Positions 1,616-51,352 of a stretch of DNA of 59,023 nt are shown here, in pieces (the stretch's first letter is position 1; each line of letters opens with the position of its first letter). The notes under the pieces are model-generated. The model saw only the letters and a list, made by a program, of their open reading frames with translations. It had not been told where the DNA came from and did not search any database. The stretch is from Candidatus Zapsychrus exili (GTDB lineage Bacteria > Omnitrophota > Gorgyraeia > Zapsychrales > Zapsychraceae): NCBI GenBank assembly GCA_030765585.1, contig JAVCCJ010000070.1, forward strand, positions 1-59,023, given 5' to 3'. A program made the translations under genes and the position numbers.

Positions 1616-1776
1616 AGGAAGGTTGTGATCGAACTACGTCCTCATCGTCATTTATTAAAAACGCGCCCAGGACGATTCCGCTTACGCGGGTCCCAACCCT
1701 CTCTAAACAAAAAAGGAAGGTTGTGATCGAACTACGTCCTCATCGTCATTTATTAAAAACGCGCCCAGGACGATTC
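1616..1776. repeat. 63-bp direct repeat including the 3' end of tRNA-Arg
   Basis: Bases 1616-1678 and 1714-1776 are identical, offset by 98. The right copy runs into the T arm of tRNA-Arg, so the left copy carries a loose tRNA 3' fragment (GCGCCCAGGACGATTC on the plus strand). The 35 bases between the copies are unique. This is either a short tandem duplication or a tRNA-targeted insertion scar. Confidence 0.9.
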
Positions 1777-1833
1777 GAACGTCCGACCCTCGCCTTAGAA
1801 GGGCGATGCTCTATCCAGCTGAGCTATAGGCGC
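1760..1833 (-). tRNA. tRNA-Arg (TCT)
   Basis: Cloverleaf on the minus strand: acceptor GCGCCTA/TGGGCGC with one G:T pair, anticodon stem TCGCC/GGCGA around CTTCTAA (anticodon TCT), T loop TTCGAAT and discriminator G at 1760. No encoded CCA, unlike the His and Pro genes nearby. Its 3' end is duplicated 98 bp downstream. Confidence 0.95.
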
Positions 1834-1876
1834 AAAATTTATTTATTATTCTATTTGAAGCTCTTCAACTATTTAC

Positions 1877-6537: not shown

Positions 6538-6760
6538 AGATCCCTGCCTTCGCAGGGATAAATTAAACTCTGTCATTCCAGTTTTTTGCAAAGCAAAAAT
6601 ACCGGAATCTCCTCAACTATTCACTTAATACTAACTAGATCCCTGCCTTCGCAGGGATAAATTAAACTCTGTCATTCCAGTTTTTTGCAAAGCAAAAATA
6701 CCGGAATCTCCTCAACTATTCACTTAATACTAACTAGATCCCTGCCTTCGCAGGGATAAA
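6538..6760. repeat. 99-bp tandem repeat, about 2.25 copies
   Basis: Copies start at 6538, 6637 and 6736 with a period of 99 and look identical; the third is cut after about 25 bases. Each unit holds two palindromes, TCCCTGCCTTCGCAGGGA and TTCCAG...CCGGAA around TTTTTTGCAAAGCAAAAAT. The same modules occur singly at 19079-19180 and 38898-38976. Confidence 0.9.
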
Positions 6761-6812
6761 TTCGGACTTCATTTTACGCTCCTTTTAGTCTCGTAAAATA
6801 TGTCCTCATTTA
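6740..6812 (-). repeat. 3'-end two-hairpin element, copy A (after rdgB)
   Basis: On the minus strand it begins in the rdgB stop codon: TAAATGAGGACATA, then a TTTTACG/CGTAAAA stem-loop, AATGAAGTCCGAATTTATCC and a second hairpin made from the tandem-repeat palindrome. Related elements follow murI, the Rrf2 gene and the DUF2892 gene. Confidence 0.7.
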
Positions 6813-7406
6813 CTTTAAATAACTTTCAATAATCTTTTTTGTCTTCTTAAGCGCTCTAGCGCGATGAGAAATCTTTGCTTTAATGGAAGGATCAAGCTCT
6901 CCGAAAGTCTTATCATATTTAGGCAAGAAAAATAAAGGATCGTACCCAAACCCATTCTTACCAACTGATTTCTTAGCAATTAATCCACTACAGCTGCCGC
7001 TCGCCACATCAACTATTCTTTTAGCATCAACTATTGCCACAAAACATCTATAACGCGCTTCTCGTCTAGCTAAAGAAACTCCACGAAGCTCACGAAGCAA
7101 TTTTAGATTATTCTTTTTATCTGTAGCATTTTCACCAGAATATCTTGCCGAATAAATCCCAGGACGATTACCAAGCGCCTTTATTTGTATCCCAGAGTCT
7201 TCGCCTAAAGTAAGCTTTTTTGTATACATCGCAATTGTAACTGCTTTCTTTAAAGCGTTTTGAGCAAATGTTTTTCCATCCTCTATTATCTCTGGCGCAT
7301 CTGGATAATCACTTAAAGAGGTTATCTTTAAATCAAAATCAGCCAACAACTCTTTTATCTCTCTTAGCTTTCCTTTATTTTTTGTAGCTACAACAAGTTC
7401 TTTCAT
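6810..7406 (-). CDS. rdgB: XTP/dITP pyrophosphatase (RdgB/HAM1)
   Basis: 198 residues from the ATG at 7406; the longer frame to 7466 adds 20 unrelated residues. It hydrolyses non-canonical purine triphosphates (XTP, dITP) to keep them out of DNA. Signatures: N-terminal VVATKNKGKLREIK, GEDSGIQIKALGNRPGIYSA and GFGYDPLFFLP, then SHRARAL near the end, all typical of the family; usual length about 197. No clear Shine-Dalgarno. It is the last gene of the que-rph-rdgB run, and rph-rdgB adjacency is common in bacteria. Confidence 0.93.
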   Translation of the reverse strand: MKELVVATKNKGKLREIKELLADFDLKITSLSDYPDAPEIIEDGKTFAQNALKKAVTIAMYTKKLTLGEDSGIQIKALGNRPGIYSARYSGENATDKKNNLKLLRELRGVSLARREARYRCFVAIVDAKRIVDVASGSCSGLIAKKSVGKNGFGYDPLFFLPKYDKTFGELDPSIKAKISHRARALKKTKKIIESYLK

Positions 7407-7410
7407 AATA

Positions 7411-7526
7411 AACACAAGGTTTAAGGTGCAAGGTTTAAATAAAAGCAATAAACAGCGAAAAAACAATCAAAATATTACCAACTTATTGTATCCCTTTGTC
7501 CTTTATCCTTTATCCTCTATCCTTTC
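7411..7526. repeat. Degenerate word arrays between rph and rdgB
   Basis: Near 7411-7440 AAGGTTTAA words recur; near 7494-7525 TCCTTTATCC words recur with one-base differences. Neither is an exact tandem repeat. Similar arrays with other words fill several spacers of this window. Confidence 0.55.
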
Positions 7527-10031: not shown

Positions 10032-10394
10032 TTATTTGTAATAGGTTACGCTTGAGGTGTCAGATTCCCAAACTTGAACTTTTTTTACCTTTAAGGGGTC
10101 AATAAGTTTGCTATAACTGTCATAAACATATTTTGCAATTAATTCAGTCGTAGGATTGTTTTCTTTAAAGAATTCTAAATCATTAAGACATTTGTGATCT
10201 AGCTCTGATAAGAAATCTTTTAGCTTACTCTTAAGCTCTGTAAAATCGTGAACCATTCCAAGGCTACCTAACTCAGGCGACACTATTGTTATCTCTATTT
10301 GATAAGTGTGCCCATGCAATGCCTCACACTTGCCCTTATATTCTCTTAAATAATGTGCTGCAGCTATACTATCTTTTATTGAAAGTTCGTACAT
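10032..10394 (-). CDS. queD: 6-carboxy-5,6,7,8-tetrahydropterin synthase QueD
   Basis: 120 residues. It acts on dihydroneopterin triphosphate at the head of the queuosine pathway. The zinc-binding histidines are in AAHYL and LHGHTYQIEI, and the catalytic cysteine is in KCEALHGH. HDFTELK and LDHKCLND are further family motifs. It is the first que gene after murI, separated by a hairpin element. I see no preQ1 riboswitch in the 120-base spacer. Confidence 0.95.
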   Translation of the reverse strand: MYELSIKDSIAAAHYLREYKGKCEALHGHTYQIEITIVSPELGSLGMVHDFTELKSKLKDFLSELDHKCLNDLEFFKENNPTTELIAKYVYDSYSKLIDPLKVKKVQVWESDTSSVTYYK

Positions 10395-10414: not shown

Positions 10415-10519
10415 GATCCCGACATTCACTTTACGAAGTCGGGATACCTACCTGCCGATAGGCAGGAATTCGTACTTATGAGTTATGTCATTTCGCTCCA
10501 TAACTCATGTGCTCATTTA
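10415..10519 (-). repeat. 3'-end two-hairpin element, copy B (after murI)
   Basis: On the minus strand it starts in the murI stop codon (TAAATGAGCACATGAG). Stem one is ATGAGTTATG/CATAACTCAT, different in sequence from copies A, C and D but again paired; a short CCTGCC hairpin follows; the last stem is ATCCCGAC/GTCGGGAT. Confidence 0.65.
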
Positions 10520-11317
10520 AATTAATTTTATTTTAATATCCCGTCCTAAAAATATTTTTGCTTGCTTCTGAAATTCTTGAGGTCTATCACTTATCAAAAA
10601 CTTGTGTTTAGGCTTGGTCTTTGAAATATTATTTTGATTGGTGCTATTTAACATCTCTTTAACTTGGCTTGCAACTTCAGTAGCTGAATCGACAAGAAAT
10701 ACATTACGACCCATTACCTTTCTTAAAACAGATTTAAGTAGAGGATAATGCGTACACCCTAAAACAAGCGTGTCTATTCTTTTAGACTTAAATATCTTTA
10801 AATATTGTTTAGCGACATCAATAGCTATTTGCTTATTAGTCCACCCCTCTTCAACTATTGGAACAAATAAAGAACATGCAGAAGATAAAACTTTTATATC
10901 AGAATCTTCTTTCTTAATCGCCTTTAAATACTCTTGACTCTTAATGGTAGCGGATGTTGCTATTACCCCAACTTTTTTATTCTGTGTCTTTAATGCAGCT
11001 TTCTTAGCGCCTGCAGATATAACTCCTACAATAGGCAATGAGAACTCTTTTTTTAATGAAGACAATGCATAACTCGACGATGAGTTACAAGCTACAATAA
11101 TCATCTTTACATTATTCTTTATAAGTACATTTACATTATCTTTTGAGAAGCGAATAATCGATTCTTTTGATTTCGTTCCATATGGCAGACGCGCTGTATC
11201 TCCATAATAGACTATATCCTCACCTGGAAGCTGACGCATAAGTTCTTTTACAACAGTCAATCCTCCTAAACCTGAATCAAAAACTCCAATTGGATTATTT
11301 CTTTTTTTATTTAACAT
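10517..11317 (-). CDS. murI: Glutamate racemase
   Basis: 266 residues from the ATG at 11317 (MLNKKRNNPIGVFDSG); a longer frame to 11338 would overlap the upstream gene. It makes D-glutamate for peptidoglycan. The catalytic cysteines lie in VACNSSSSYAL and LGCTHYPLL, and GVFDSGLGGLTV and YYGDTARLPYG are the substrate-site motifs. It follows the secretin gene by only a few bases, so it is probably transcribed with it. Confidence 0.95.
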   Translation of the reverse strand: MLNKKRNNPIGVFDSGLGGLTVVKELMRQLPGEDIVYYGDTARLPYGTKSKESIIRFSKDNVNVLIKNNVKMIIVACNSSSSYALSSLKKEFSLPIVGVISAGAKKAALKTQNKKVGVIATSATIKSQEYLKAIKKEDSDIKVLSSACSLFVPIVEEGWTNKQIAIDVAKQYLKIFKSKRIDTLVLGCTHYPLLKSVLRKVMGRNVFLVDSATEVASQVKEMLNSTNQNNISKTKPKHKFLISDRPQEFQKQAKIFLGRDIKIKLI

Positions 11318-11321
11318 AATA

Positions 11322-12839
11322 TTAATTTCCGCGAGCAACTATCTTTGGCGTTAAAAAAATGACAATCTCTGTTTTCTGTTCATCCGTTCTCTGTCCCCTA
11401 AAAGCAACACCTAACAACGGAATACTTCCTAGAAAAGGTACTTTTCTTAAAGATTCAGATTTGACATTCTGGAATAAGCCTCCAATTACAACAACAGAAT
11501 CATTCTTTGTGTCTATAGAAAAAAGTTGCTCTTCTATCTCTGAGGTATCTCTTTCTGATAAAATAAACTTTGGAATAATATCCAAAGACAACAGACCTTC
11601 TCCTTTTATGTGAGAAGCTAGCTGCATATTAAGTTCAAAGGTTTCTTCTTCTAAATCTTCATTCAATTTAGAAGACACAGAGTCTGTTATATTTAAAGCA
11701 ATTTTTGATAATTCATCTTTTATCATATCAATATTAGAATTAAAAATAGTTTTTATAACTCCTACAGTATCTAGCGCATCAGATAAAATAGCATAATCTT
11801 CAATTGAAACCGTTCCTACGCTTAATTTCTCCAAACTTCCGTTTAAAACCTGCTTTAGCGCAGTTAGATTTAAGTCTTTATAGTCAGATAAAATTGCTCT
11901 CCAGTCGACCCCAGCCTGATGTTCCTCGTTTAAAACGATTTGTATAATCTCTGCTTCTAATACGATTCTTCTGCCCTGATAATCTAGTCTCTTGATCAGA
12001 TTACTAATATTTTCAAACACGGACGGTATATCTGTTACCGTAATTTTATTCTCTTTTTCATCTATCTCAATCTTACCTACGTTCTCAGTCAAAAGGCTTT
12101 GACTCTCTTTTGCTACTTCCTTGCAATCTATATGCTCTAAAACAAAAACCTTAACTTCAACTTCAACATCAACTTGTTTTATAAAATCTACCATATCATT
12201 TAAATCTTCTAAGGAACCAATTAATGCTATTGTGTTTGTTTCGTTGTTTACAATAACTCTTCCAACATCACTTTTCATATTTTCTAAAATCAATGCCACT
12301 ACGGACGCTTCCGCATGTTCTAATTTAACAATCTTTGTCTGAATTTTATCGCGAAATGAAAATCCATGATGCAATTTAAAATCTTCATCCGTTATTACGT
12401 GCACAATATCTCCGATTTCTTCATAAGCTAAATCACTTGAATCTAGTATAATTCTAAGCACATCAAAGGCATTTATATATCTTAAATATATGCTAATCTC
12501 CTCGGGAAGATCCTCTTCCGTTATAATATTAAGTCCACTTTTTACATAAATTAGCTCCAATACATCTTTTATTGGCATATTAGTCACCTGAAGTTCATCA
12601 ATCATATATTTAACATATTCTTCAGGCTCTTCTAATTCAATTTCTTCTATAAACGTTTCATCAATACTTGTTCCCTGAATTTCTTCAATAGCGTCCAAAG
12701 TTTCTTCAACAATCAACTCTTTAACATTTTGACTAAAACAAAACTTAGGGGCAATAGCAGCAATACATAAACAAATGCAACCACATATAAAAAATCTACA
12801 AAATATCAAAATCAAATCTCTATTTATCATTATCTGCAT
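11322..12839 (-). CDS. Secretin-family protein (GspD/PilQ-like), first copy
   Basis: 505 residues (or 502 from the ATG at 12830). A signal peptide is followed by an STN-like short domain (IKDVLELIYVKSGLNIITEE), N1-type ring-building repeats (EHAEASVVALILENM, IVNNETNTIALIGS) and the secretin core ending VPFLGSIPLLGVAFRG...EIVIFLTPKIV. Secretins form outer-membrane pores for type II secretion or type IV pili. It is away from the pilus cluster, where a second secretin lies, and overlaps the upstream MerR-like gene by 11-20 bases. Confidence 0.85.
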   Translation of the reverse strand: MQIMINRDLILIFCRFFICGCICLCIAAIAPKFCFSQNVKELIVEETLDAIEEIQGTSIDETFIEEIELEEPEEYVKYMIDELQVTNMPIKDVLELIYVKSGLNIITEEDLPEEISIYLRYINAFDVLRIILDSSDLAYEEIGDIVHVITDEDFKLHHGFSFRDKIQTKIVKLEHAEASVVALILENMKSDVGRVIVNNETNTIALIGSLEDLNDMVDFIKQVDVEVEVKVFVLEHIDCKEVAKESQSLLTENVGKIEIDEKENKITVTDIPSVFENISNLIKRLDYQGRRIVLEAEIIQIVLNEEHQAGVDWRAILSDYKDLNLTALKQVLNGSLEKLSVGTVSIEDYAILSDALDTVGVIKTIFNSNIDMIKDELSKIALNITDSVSSKLNEDLEEETFELNMQLASHIKGEGLLSLDIIPKFILSERDTSEIEEQLFSIDTKNDSVVVIGGLFQNVKSESLRKVPFLGSIPLLGVAFRGQRTDEQKTEIVIFLTPKIVARGN

Positions 12840-15817: not shown

Positions 15818-15896
15818 GATCCCTCGCTTGAAAGCTCGGGATAAATTCGGGCTTCACTTTACACTTCCGTTGGTCGTGCAAACTATGCCCTTATTT
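15818..15896 (-). repeat. 3'-end two-hairpin element, copy C (after the Rrf2 gene)
   Basis: On the minus strand, a few bases after the Rrf2 stop: AAATAAGGGCATAG, stem TTTGCAC/GTGTAAA with one G:T pair, AAGTGAAGCCCGAATTTATCC, then the ATCCCGAGCTT/AAGCGAGGGAT hairpin. The stem differs from copy D at several positions but stays paired. Confidence 0.7.
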
Positions 15897-15899
15897 AAA

Positions 15900-16304
15900 T
15901 TAAGAGCAATCAAGTAAAGATGCAATAGATATTTTATTTAATTCTTTTATTAAGGAAGTTTCGATGCTTTTTAACTTCTTTCGTACGGGGCAAACTTTTA
16001 TATCTGGGCAAACTTCTTTCTTAAGAAAACATTCTGTAAGAGATACTCCTCCTTGAAATATTCCTATTAAATCAACTAAAAATATTGTCTTAGGATTAAC
16101 ATCCAAAATAAAACCACCCTTATTACCCTTAACAGATCTTAGAATACTTTCTTTCTGCAGTATTTGAAGAATCTTACGTAGAAAAGGTTTTGGAAGTCCT
16201 AAACTTTTTTGTATTTCAGATACAGCTACTATTTTTTCTTTAGATTTAGTAATATACATAAGAGCCCTTACGGCATAATCTGTATCTCTTGTCATCAGCT
16301 TCAT
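15900..16304 (-). CDS. Rrf2-family transcriptional regulator with Fe-S type cysteines
   Basis: 134 residues. The winged helix (KLMTRDTDYAVRALMYI, VSEIQKSLGLPKPFLRKILQ, GNKGGF wing) is followed by three cysteines spaced as in IscR/NsrR (CFLKKEVCPDIKVC), which usually hold an iron-sulfur cluster sensing NO, O2 or Fe-S status. It ends the rubredoxin-fprA-dfx run and overlaps ogg by four bases. It is my candidate for the regulator that binds the hcp/ferredoxin operator; unproven. Confidence 0.88.
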   Translation of the reverse strand: MKLMTRDTDYAVRALMYITKSKEKIVAVSEIQKSLGLPKPFLRKILQILQKESILRSVKGNKGGFILDVNPKTIFLVDLIGIFQGGVSLTECFLKKEVCPDIKVCPVRKKLKSIETSLIKELNKISIASLLDCS

Positions 16305-19078: not shown

Positions 19079-19180
19079 GTCATCCCTGCGAAGGCAGGGA
19101 TGACATTAATATATTTAACTGTTTTTTATCAATAAGAGATTCCGGTATTCTCGTCTTACGGCTCGAAACCGGAATGACAG
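19079..19180. repeat. Palindromic repeat pair (GTCATCCCTGC and CCGGAATGAC modules)
   Basis: GTCATCCCTGC/GCAGGGATGAC forms a 26-base palindrome at 19079-19104, followed by ATTCCGGT...ACCGGAAT. These are the same modules that make up the 99-bp tandem repeat near 6538 and the element at 38898. A word array of CCTTAAACCTTAATCC type follows (19187-19219). Confidence 0.8.
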
Positions 19181-19223: not shown

Positions 19224-19385
19224 TTACTCTACTACTTCAAAATCATCTTTACCAACGCCACATTCAGGACATACCCAATCATCTGATATATCTTCAAATG
19301 CAGTACCAGCTGCAACTCCATTATCAGAATCACCAACTTCAGGATCATAGATATACCCACATACTGTGCATTTATACTTTTTCAT
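19224..19385 (-). CDS. Rubredoxin
   Basis: 53 residues, starting [19 protein letters not shown] and ending with [16 protein letters not shown]. The two CxxC pairs bind one iron. GAGGAG precedes the ATG by about eight bases. It is the expected electron donor for the flavodiiron protein, desulfoferrodoxin and rubrerythrins encoded around it. Confidence 0.96.
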
Positions 19386-19404: not shown

Positions 19405-19483
19405 GATCCCTCGCTTTAAAGCTCGGGATAAATTCGAACCTCAATTTACGCTCCCTTTGGTCTCGTAAATTATGCCCTCATTT
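19405..19483 (-). repeat. 3'-end two-hairpin element, copy D (after the DUF2892 gene)
   Basis: On the minus strand: TAAATGAGGGCATAA, beginning at the stop codon, then a stem TTTACG/CGTAAA, ATTGAGGTTCGAATTTATCC and a final ATCCCGAGCTTT/AAAGCGAGGGAT hairpin. It lies just before the rubredoxin ribosome site. Confidence 0.75.
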
Positions 19484-19667
19484 ATTTTAATCCTAACTTC
19501 TTTAATATAATTATCATCGGACACCAATTCGTAAACGCTGACTGCAACAAATTTAATCCAATAAAAACTGTTAATAAAATCCATAAAGGATTTACAAAAT
19601 ATGCAAGAGCAGCGCTTATTAGTACCATTACACCCGCTATTGCCCTTAATACTCTTTCTAATGTCAT
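19482..19667 (-). CDS. DUF2892 (YgaP-type) small membrane protein
   Basis: 61 residues with two membrane helices (about 6-25 and 27-46) and the conserved NWCPMIIILKKLG end. In YgaP this unit is fused to a rhodanese domain; here it stands alone, as often happens. Function unknown. It begins one base after the RND pump gene, so the two are co-transcribed. Confidence 0.88.
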   Translation of the reverse strand: MTLERVLRAIAGVMVLISAALAYFVNPLWILLTVFIGLNLLQSAFTNWCPMIIILKKLGLK

Positions 19668-38897: not shown

Positions 38898-38976
38898 GTC
38901 ATTCCTGCGAAGGCAGGAATCTCTTCTTTTAGCTAAAAGATTCCGGTATTTTTGCTTTGCAAAAAACCGGAATGAC
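38898..38976. repeat. Palindromic repeat (GTCATTCCTGC ... CCGGAATGAC)
   Basis: Outer arms GTCATTCC and GGAATGAC, with inner palindromes CCTGCGAAGGCAGG and CCGGTATTTTTGC/GCAAAAAACCGG. The same unit forms the 99-bp tandem repeat at 6538. It lies between the ferredoxin stop and the zinc-ribbon gene and may end transcription. Confidence 0.8.
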
Positions 38977-51249: not shown

Positions 51250-51352
51250 ATTTTTGGAGATTCCTGCCTTCGCAGGAATGACAAACCCGACGCTGTCATT
51301 TCTGGTGCAGAAAAAATCCACGAGCTACAAATCACAATCCACGAATCATGAA

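Follow-up and report, generated by a model that had tools for sequence, protein, structure and literature searches.

Four copies of a two-hairpin element lie after stop codons in the 59,023-nt stretch of Candidatus Zapsychrus exili DNA analyzed here (the window), which raises the question of whether the element serves the 3' ends of mRNAs or came to these positions in some other way. The first of these had been proposed in a sequence-only reading of the window. The copies are where that reading placed them (6737-6812, 10415-10519, 15818-15897 and 19405-19484, all on the minus strand), and the stop codon is inside the element in three of the four, as it had noted. In these three the own first three bases of the element are the TAA stop of rdgB (6810-6812), murI (10517-10519) or the YgaP-like/DUF2892 gene (19482-19484), and the Rrf2 stop (15900-15902) is 2 nt outside the Rrf2 copy. 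The first hairpin (H1), the second hairpin (H2) and the neighbour genes are as follows.

6737 to 6756, minus strand: H2 of the rdgB copy, CCCTGC/GCAGGG, running on into two 99-nt tandem repeats
6757 to 6812, minus strand: H1 of the rdgB copy (covariance-model match of 78.0 bits, and fold)
6810 to 7466, minus strand: neighbour gene of the Ham1/RdgB family
10415 to 10445, minus strand: H2 of the murI copy, ATCCCGAC/GTCGGGAT, upstream of a PTPS/QueD-like gene (10032-10394)
10447 to 10466, minus strand: extra hairpin CCTGCC/GGCAGG between H1 and H2 of the murI copy (fold)
10467 to 10519, minus strand: H1 of the murI copy, outer stem disrupted (covariance-model match of 39.9 bits)
10517 to 11338, minus strand: neighbour gene for an Asp/Glu racemase (MurI-like)
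15818 to 15841, minus strand: H2 of the Rrf2 copy (fold)
15842 to 15897, minus strand: H1 of the Rrf2 copy (covariance-model match of 66.0 bits, and fold)
15900 to 16304, minus strand: neighbour gene for an Rrf2 regulator
19405 to 19428, minus strand: H2 of the YgaP-like/DUF2892 copy, a TCCC..GGGA hairpin
19429 to 19484, minus strand: H1 of the YgaP-like/DUF2892 copy (covariance-model match of 74.8 bits, and fold)
19482 to 19667, minus strand: neighbour gene for a YgaP-like transmembrane domain (the DUF2892 gene of the sequence-only reading)

The hairpin is larger than had been described. The inner stems quoted earlier are real, but what had been taken as shared sequence, TAAATGAG and GAATTTA, forms the opposite arms of an outer stem, TAAAT/ATTTA, which is accompanied by a GA/GA internal loop and a GNNC/GNNC pairing. 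The order within H1 is TAAAT-GA-GNNC-variable arm-loop-variable arm-(2-3 nt bulge)-GNNC-GA-ATTTA, with H2 immediately after. The YgaP-like/DUF2892 copy, for example, has an H1 of TAAAT / GA / GGGC / ATA / ATTTACG ... CGTAAAT / TGAG / GTTC / GA / ATTTA and an H2 separated by about 6 nt from the Shine-Dalgarno of the rubredoxin gene that follows downstream (19224-19385). Unaided RNA folding recovered the outer stem in three copies, with z from -4.1 to -5.9; the murI copy also folds (z -5.3), its outer stem being broken by the extra CCTGCC/GGCAGG hairpin within it. Most matches to H1 are 54-70 nt long, with a three-part stem. The sequence of H2 varies freely; under a strict score, 52% of 238 copies have a stem after H1, versus 12% upstream or in shuffled sequence.

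Pairing was then evaluated across copies. A pattern of the outer arms only gave 15 matches in the 2.04-Mb genome versus 1 for a reversed-pattern control. Among 11 copies from this genome 97% of paired cells pair, double changes occur at 10 of 19 pairs and covariation exceeded that of all 500 shuffles. In one related genus, represented by 105 copies, pairing holds in 95% of paired cells and double changes occur in 16 of 19 pairs (357 cells); in this alignment, which was fitted to the structure, sliding the partners by one or two columns left 31-36% pairing. The outermost pairs covary too (TAAAT/ATTTA, TTAAT/ATTAA, TCAAT/ATTGA, CCAAT/ATTGG). The earlier claim that the stems are kept paired is therefore upheld by covariation stronger than first shown. 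Its extension to selection on RNA structure is not established by paired stems, because GA/GA is strand-specific in both orientations, being retained on the same strand in both transcriptional orientation classes (69 of 76 and 33 of 46 copies), and because most copies are absent from the orthologous sites of sister species, as described below.

A genome-wide covariance-model search gave 40 matches at E<=1 in the genome of the window, which carries about 35-40 copies. A search of relatives located the element in 38 of 55 genomes, this one included, with up to 67-68 copies, and 112 of 193 Omnitrophota genomes sampled across the phylum carry it (E<=1e-4). An exact-arm pattern run against one genome per species, 84,980 species in all, matched 30 stretches, every one titled Omnitrophota or a named member, and did not match any viral contig. 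An Rfam covariance search of the window returned three tRNAs only and no match to the element over the gathering score, and literature searches on palindromic repeats of Omnitrophota yielded nothing relevant. A hairpin family spread across this phylum has apparently not been described before, and with it a poorly studied, uncultured group gains a repeat family of phylum-wide range.

With the wider sample the proposed link to 3' ends did not hold. All four window copies follow stop codons, as do 14 of 30 copies in the same genome, but in four genomes the outer end of H1 faces a gene start (antisense) in 81 copies and a stop codon (sense) in only 39, which already contradicts a terminator or mRNA stabilizer acting at 3' ends. 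A T-run after H2 is absent from the four window copies, and none is typical of 96 listed copies from the related genus; a Rho-independent terminator was rejected on that ground. We therefore hold a 3'-end element to be highly improbable, and its appearance in the window to be a sampling accident of one window.

What does recur is the position of one end of H1. Taking as gene edge the stop codon, or the point 11 nt before the start codon to allow for the Shine-Dalgarno, as given by simple ORF calls on draft genomes with approximate starts, the outer H1 end is no more than 4 nt from an edge in 68% of 117 copies from four genomes, compared with 8% for the H2 end (paired Wilcoxon p 5e-8; not significant in G047 alone). 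The distances fall into discrete registers: 25 copies have a stop codon at their own first bases, 14 overlap a start codon by one base and a further cluster has the start codon 9-13 nt away from the H1 end. Seven copies lie at tRNA ends, both 5' and 3', at distances of 0, 0, -3, 0, 4, 5 and 1 nt. As a control, unrelated GTCATTCC..GGAATC palindromes of the same genome had 1 of 22 ends (5%) within 4 nt of a gene edge, a small sample, which argues against edge placement as a general property of palindromes; together with the asymmetry between the H1 and H2 ends it also argues against a trivial effect of compact spacers. The window holds such REP-like palindromes at 6572-6609, 19138-19178, 38898-38921, 38939-38976 and 51259-51282, none of them at a gene edge. 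Copies at L086 5409-5607, L101 1183-1241 and L193 16553-16609 are upstream of tRNA-Glu/Gln genes, and their outer H1 end touches what seems to be an incomplete second copy of the tRNA 5' end, as would result from a partial duplication of the tRNA.

On contig C32 of G044, 15 of 16 copies are on the strand opposite to most genes; from 86 kb to 507 kb of that contig (L172-L183) nearly all genes are on one strand and the GC skew is about -0.15. A replication-strand preference was dismissed as a general rule, since the genome of the window has more sense, stop-side copies.

These placements could be read as punctuation at the RNA level, in which a hairpin transcribed at a stop codon, ahead of a Shine-Dalgarno or next to a tRNA would protect or process RNA ends or insulate translation, and selection would keep it flush with the gene. 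The proximity of the outer H1 end to gene edges, the registers, the tRNA-end distances and the strong RNA folds are consistent with this. G-T exceeds A-C by more in sense copies (33 to 7) than in antisense copies (34 to 24; Fisher p 0.015), which also fits, but the comparison has two confounders, strand-biased mutation (with a local GC skew of about +/-0.2) and the RNA scoring used in the alignment. Most copies are antisense at starts, so that the transcribed strand has UC/UC and not GA/GA, and the neighbour genes are diverse and without common function (RdgB, MurI, Rrf2, enolase, IlvD, H+-PPase). Copies are moreover missing at most orthologous sites within one genus, and on this balance we regard RNA punctuation as unlikely.

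The turnover was followed in three genomes of one genus (70-80% DNA identity), each represented by about 20 stretches. The element was absent at 41 of 49 assessable syntenic comparisons, in regions picked for carrying copies; presence or absence does not by itself distinguish an insertion from a precise loss. A complete copy of 143 nt in G003, a genome of a second genus, is located between a Shine-Dalgarno and a stop codon and stands opposite an unrelated 33-nt spacer in G019, with flanks that are 96% and 91% identical; G029 has the same copy with a different H2, and G025 and G027 have other spacers of 28 and 30 nt. From these comparisons it follows that spacers turn over wholesale and that the element is one of the players, so that the spacers of operon genes can be wholly swapped for hairpins between close relatives. 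Clean replacement was seen in only this one same-genus pair, the remaining cases looking like simple insertions or being too diverged to read. At a second site in this genus (L084 1414-1555) the element is present in G019, and other palindromes of 78 and 84 nt occupy the spacer in G003 and G025 (L281/L285, L282). The unrelated long palindromes at this spacer suggest a general turnover of palindromes in operon spacers.

Taken with copy number, these observations point to mobile DNA. The family probably represents Omnitrophota-wide, short, non-autonomous mobile palindromic repeats, a reading that fits the high copy number, the occurrence in both orientations, the unrelated neighbours, the presence or absence between relatives and the scarcity of copies in coding sequence (9 of 109 cores fall within ORFs, at a coding density of 91%). 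Searches for Y1 transposases and integron integrases, described below, yielded no gene that would mobilize the copies, which counts against this reading. No gene-bearing copy was noticed among the loci read. As a mechanism, an enzyme acting in trans would recognize H1 as folded single-stranded DNA and join the outer end of H1 to the target, leaving no duplication there. New copies would thereby land in, or replace, intergenic spacers, where they would be co-transcribed, fold in the RNA and perhaps secondarily affect the expression of neighbouring mRNAs. Recognition as a folded DNA strand would suit the retention of GA/GA on the same strand in both orientations, together with the lack of target duplication. 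Flank similarity was 3.44 versus 3.46 for shuffled pairings, 292 of 500 of which were at least as high, with the H2 end placed approximately; a TTTCCTT duplication suspected at G041:C2:105094 did not generalize.

In many genomes the element forms larger units. The complete form is H1-H2-inverted H1, of which 21 examples of 129-351 nt were found, with a central part of 16 to 233 nt, mostly hairpin-folding, between the two H1s. The GNNC words often differ between the two H1s of a unit, each word pairing within its own H1, so what is maintained is the individual hairpin and not one long inverted repeat. In G108 and G125 (L252, L243, L250, L256, L264) the middle module is often about 105 nt long with a conserved-looking outer stem, ACCC..GGGT, and is possibly a separate structured unit. 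A tandem array of three H1 copies with a 116-nt period lies at G041:C23 13965-14255.

Among strand-specific hairpins, integron attC sites are imperfect, carry extrahelical bulges and a variable terminal loop, and lie beside stop codons. H1 shares these features, but its end sequences are different, the housekeeping genes beside it do not move with the site and none of 16 genomes had an integron integrase over the TIGR02249 cut-off; identity with attC was rejected on the last of these results.

The likeness to REP and BIME sequences is closer, these also being short extragenic palindromes present in tens to hundreds per genome, with inverted dimers and clusters, compensatory stem changes and no target duplication seen (PMC3733652, PMC2817692). 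The H1 family is likewise extragenic and multi-copy, and occurs as single copies, inverted dimers and tandem arrays, so that H1 could be a REP that has diverged and is mobilized by a Y1 (IS200/IS605-like) transposase, as in REP/RAYT systems. Neither H1 end carried a GTAG or CGTC tag in 96 copies, except for two whose outer end has GACG, the complement of CGTC, and the tags occurred only 1-3 times at the H2 end. A Y1 transposase gene had a copy nearby at only 1 of 32 loci, about 680 nt from the match, and no Y1 gene was flanked by copies, an arrangement that defines GTAG-type REPs only; in the copy-rich genomes G044 and G047 no Y1 gene was detected. H1, at about 55-70 nt with a compound stem, GA/GA loop and bulge, also differs from the single 20-40 bp palindrome of a REP, and its outer end abuts gene edges. 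We consider a REP/RAYT-type origin very unlikely.

BOX, RUP and other MITE-like repeats of pneumococcus are similarly modular hairpin elements, intergenic and co-transcribed, with two ends and a variable middle (PMC3049150). They differ in that each end of the H1 family is its own independently covarying hairpin placed precisely at a gene edge, with no cognate insertion sequence found and with no target-site duplication, by which DDE-type MITEs are recognized. Mobile double-hairpin elements of organelle genomes (PMC4478555, PMC5910586) are likewise hairpin pairs situated between genes, and there the comparison is one of how the elements work and not of sequence, the H1 family being bacterial and of fixed H1 architecture. 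The element resembles REP/BIME or MITE-like repeats in how it works, but we assign it to neither.

Exact abutment to gene edges, as seen for H1, would not be expected of a generic mobile repeat and counts against reading the family as such. Insertion may be steered to these edges, or else copies are retained only where they lie flush, the hairpin there being helpful or harmless. It is conceivable, and we put it forward tentatively, that the family is a new type of mobile element, with precise delivery of its outer end to the functional boundaries of genes, be it the stop codon, the Shine-Dalgarno or start codon, or mature tRNA ends. Such delivery might sometimes replace the whole spacer, and might, just as tentatively, sense gene boundaries and not a DNA motif, for example via RNA ends or intermediates of translation or transcription. 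If edge precision is a property of insertion, mobile DNA has a way to find gene boundaries, and we know of no described bacterial repeat that finds them in that way. If it is the product of selection, there would be a general role for hairpins set directly against ribosome-binding sites, stop codons and tRNAs.

Two further repeats were observed in the window. The rdgB copy is directly continued by two perfect 99-nt tandem repeats (6538-6735), which contain an H2-like CCCTGC/GCAGGG hairpin and a GTCATTCC..GGAATC palindrome. Perfect 63-nt direct repeats at 1616-1678 and 1714-1776, 98 nt apart, overlap a tRNA-Arg gene (1759-1834, minus strand) at its 3' end and are perhaps a tRNA-associated duplication.
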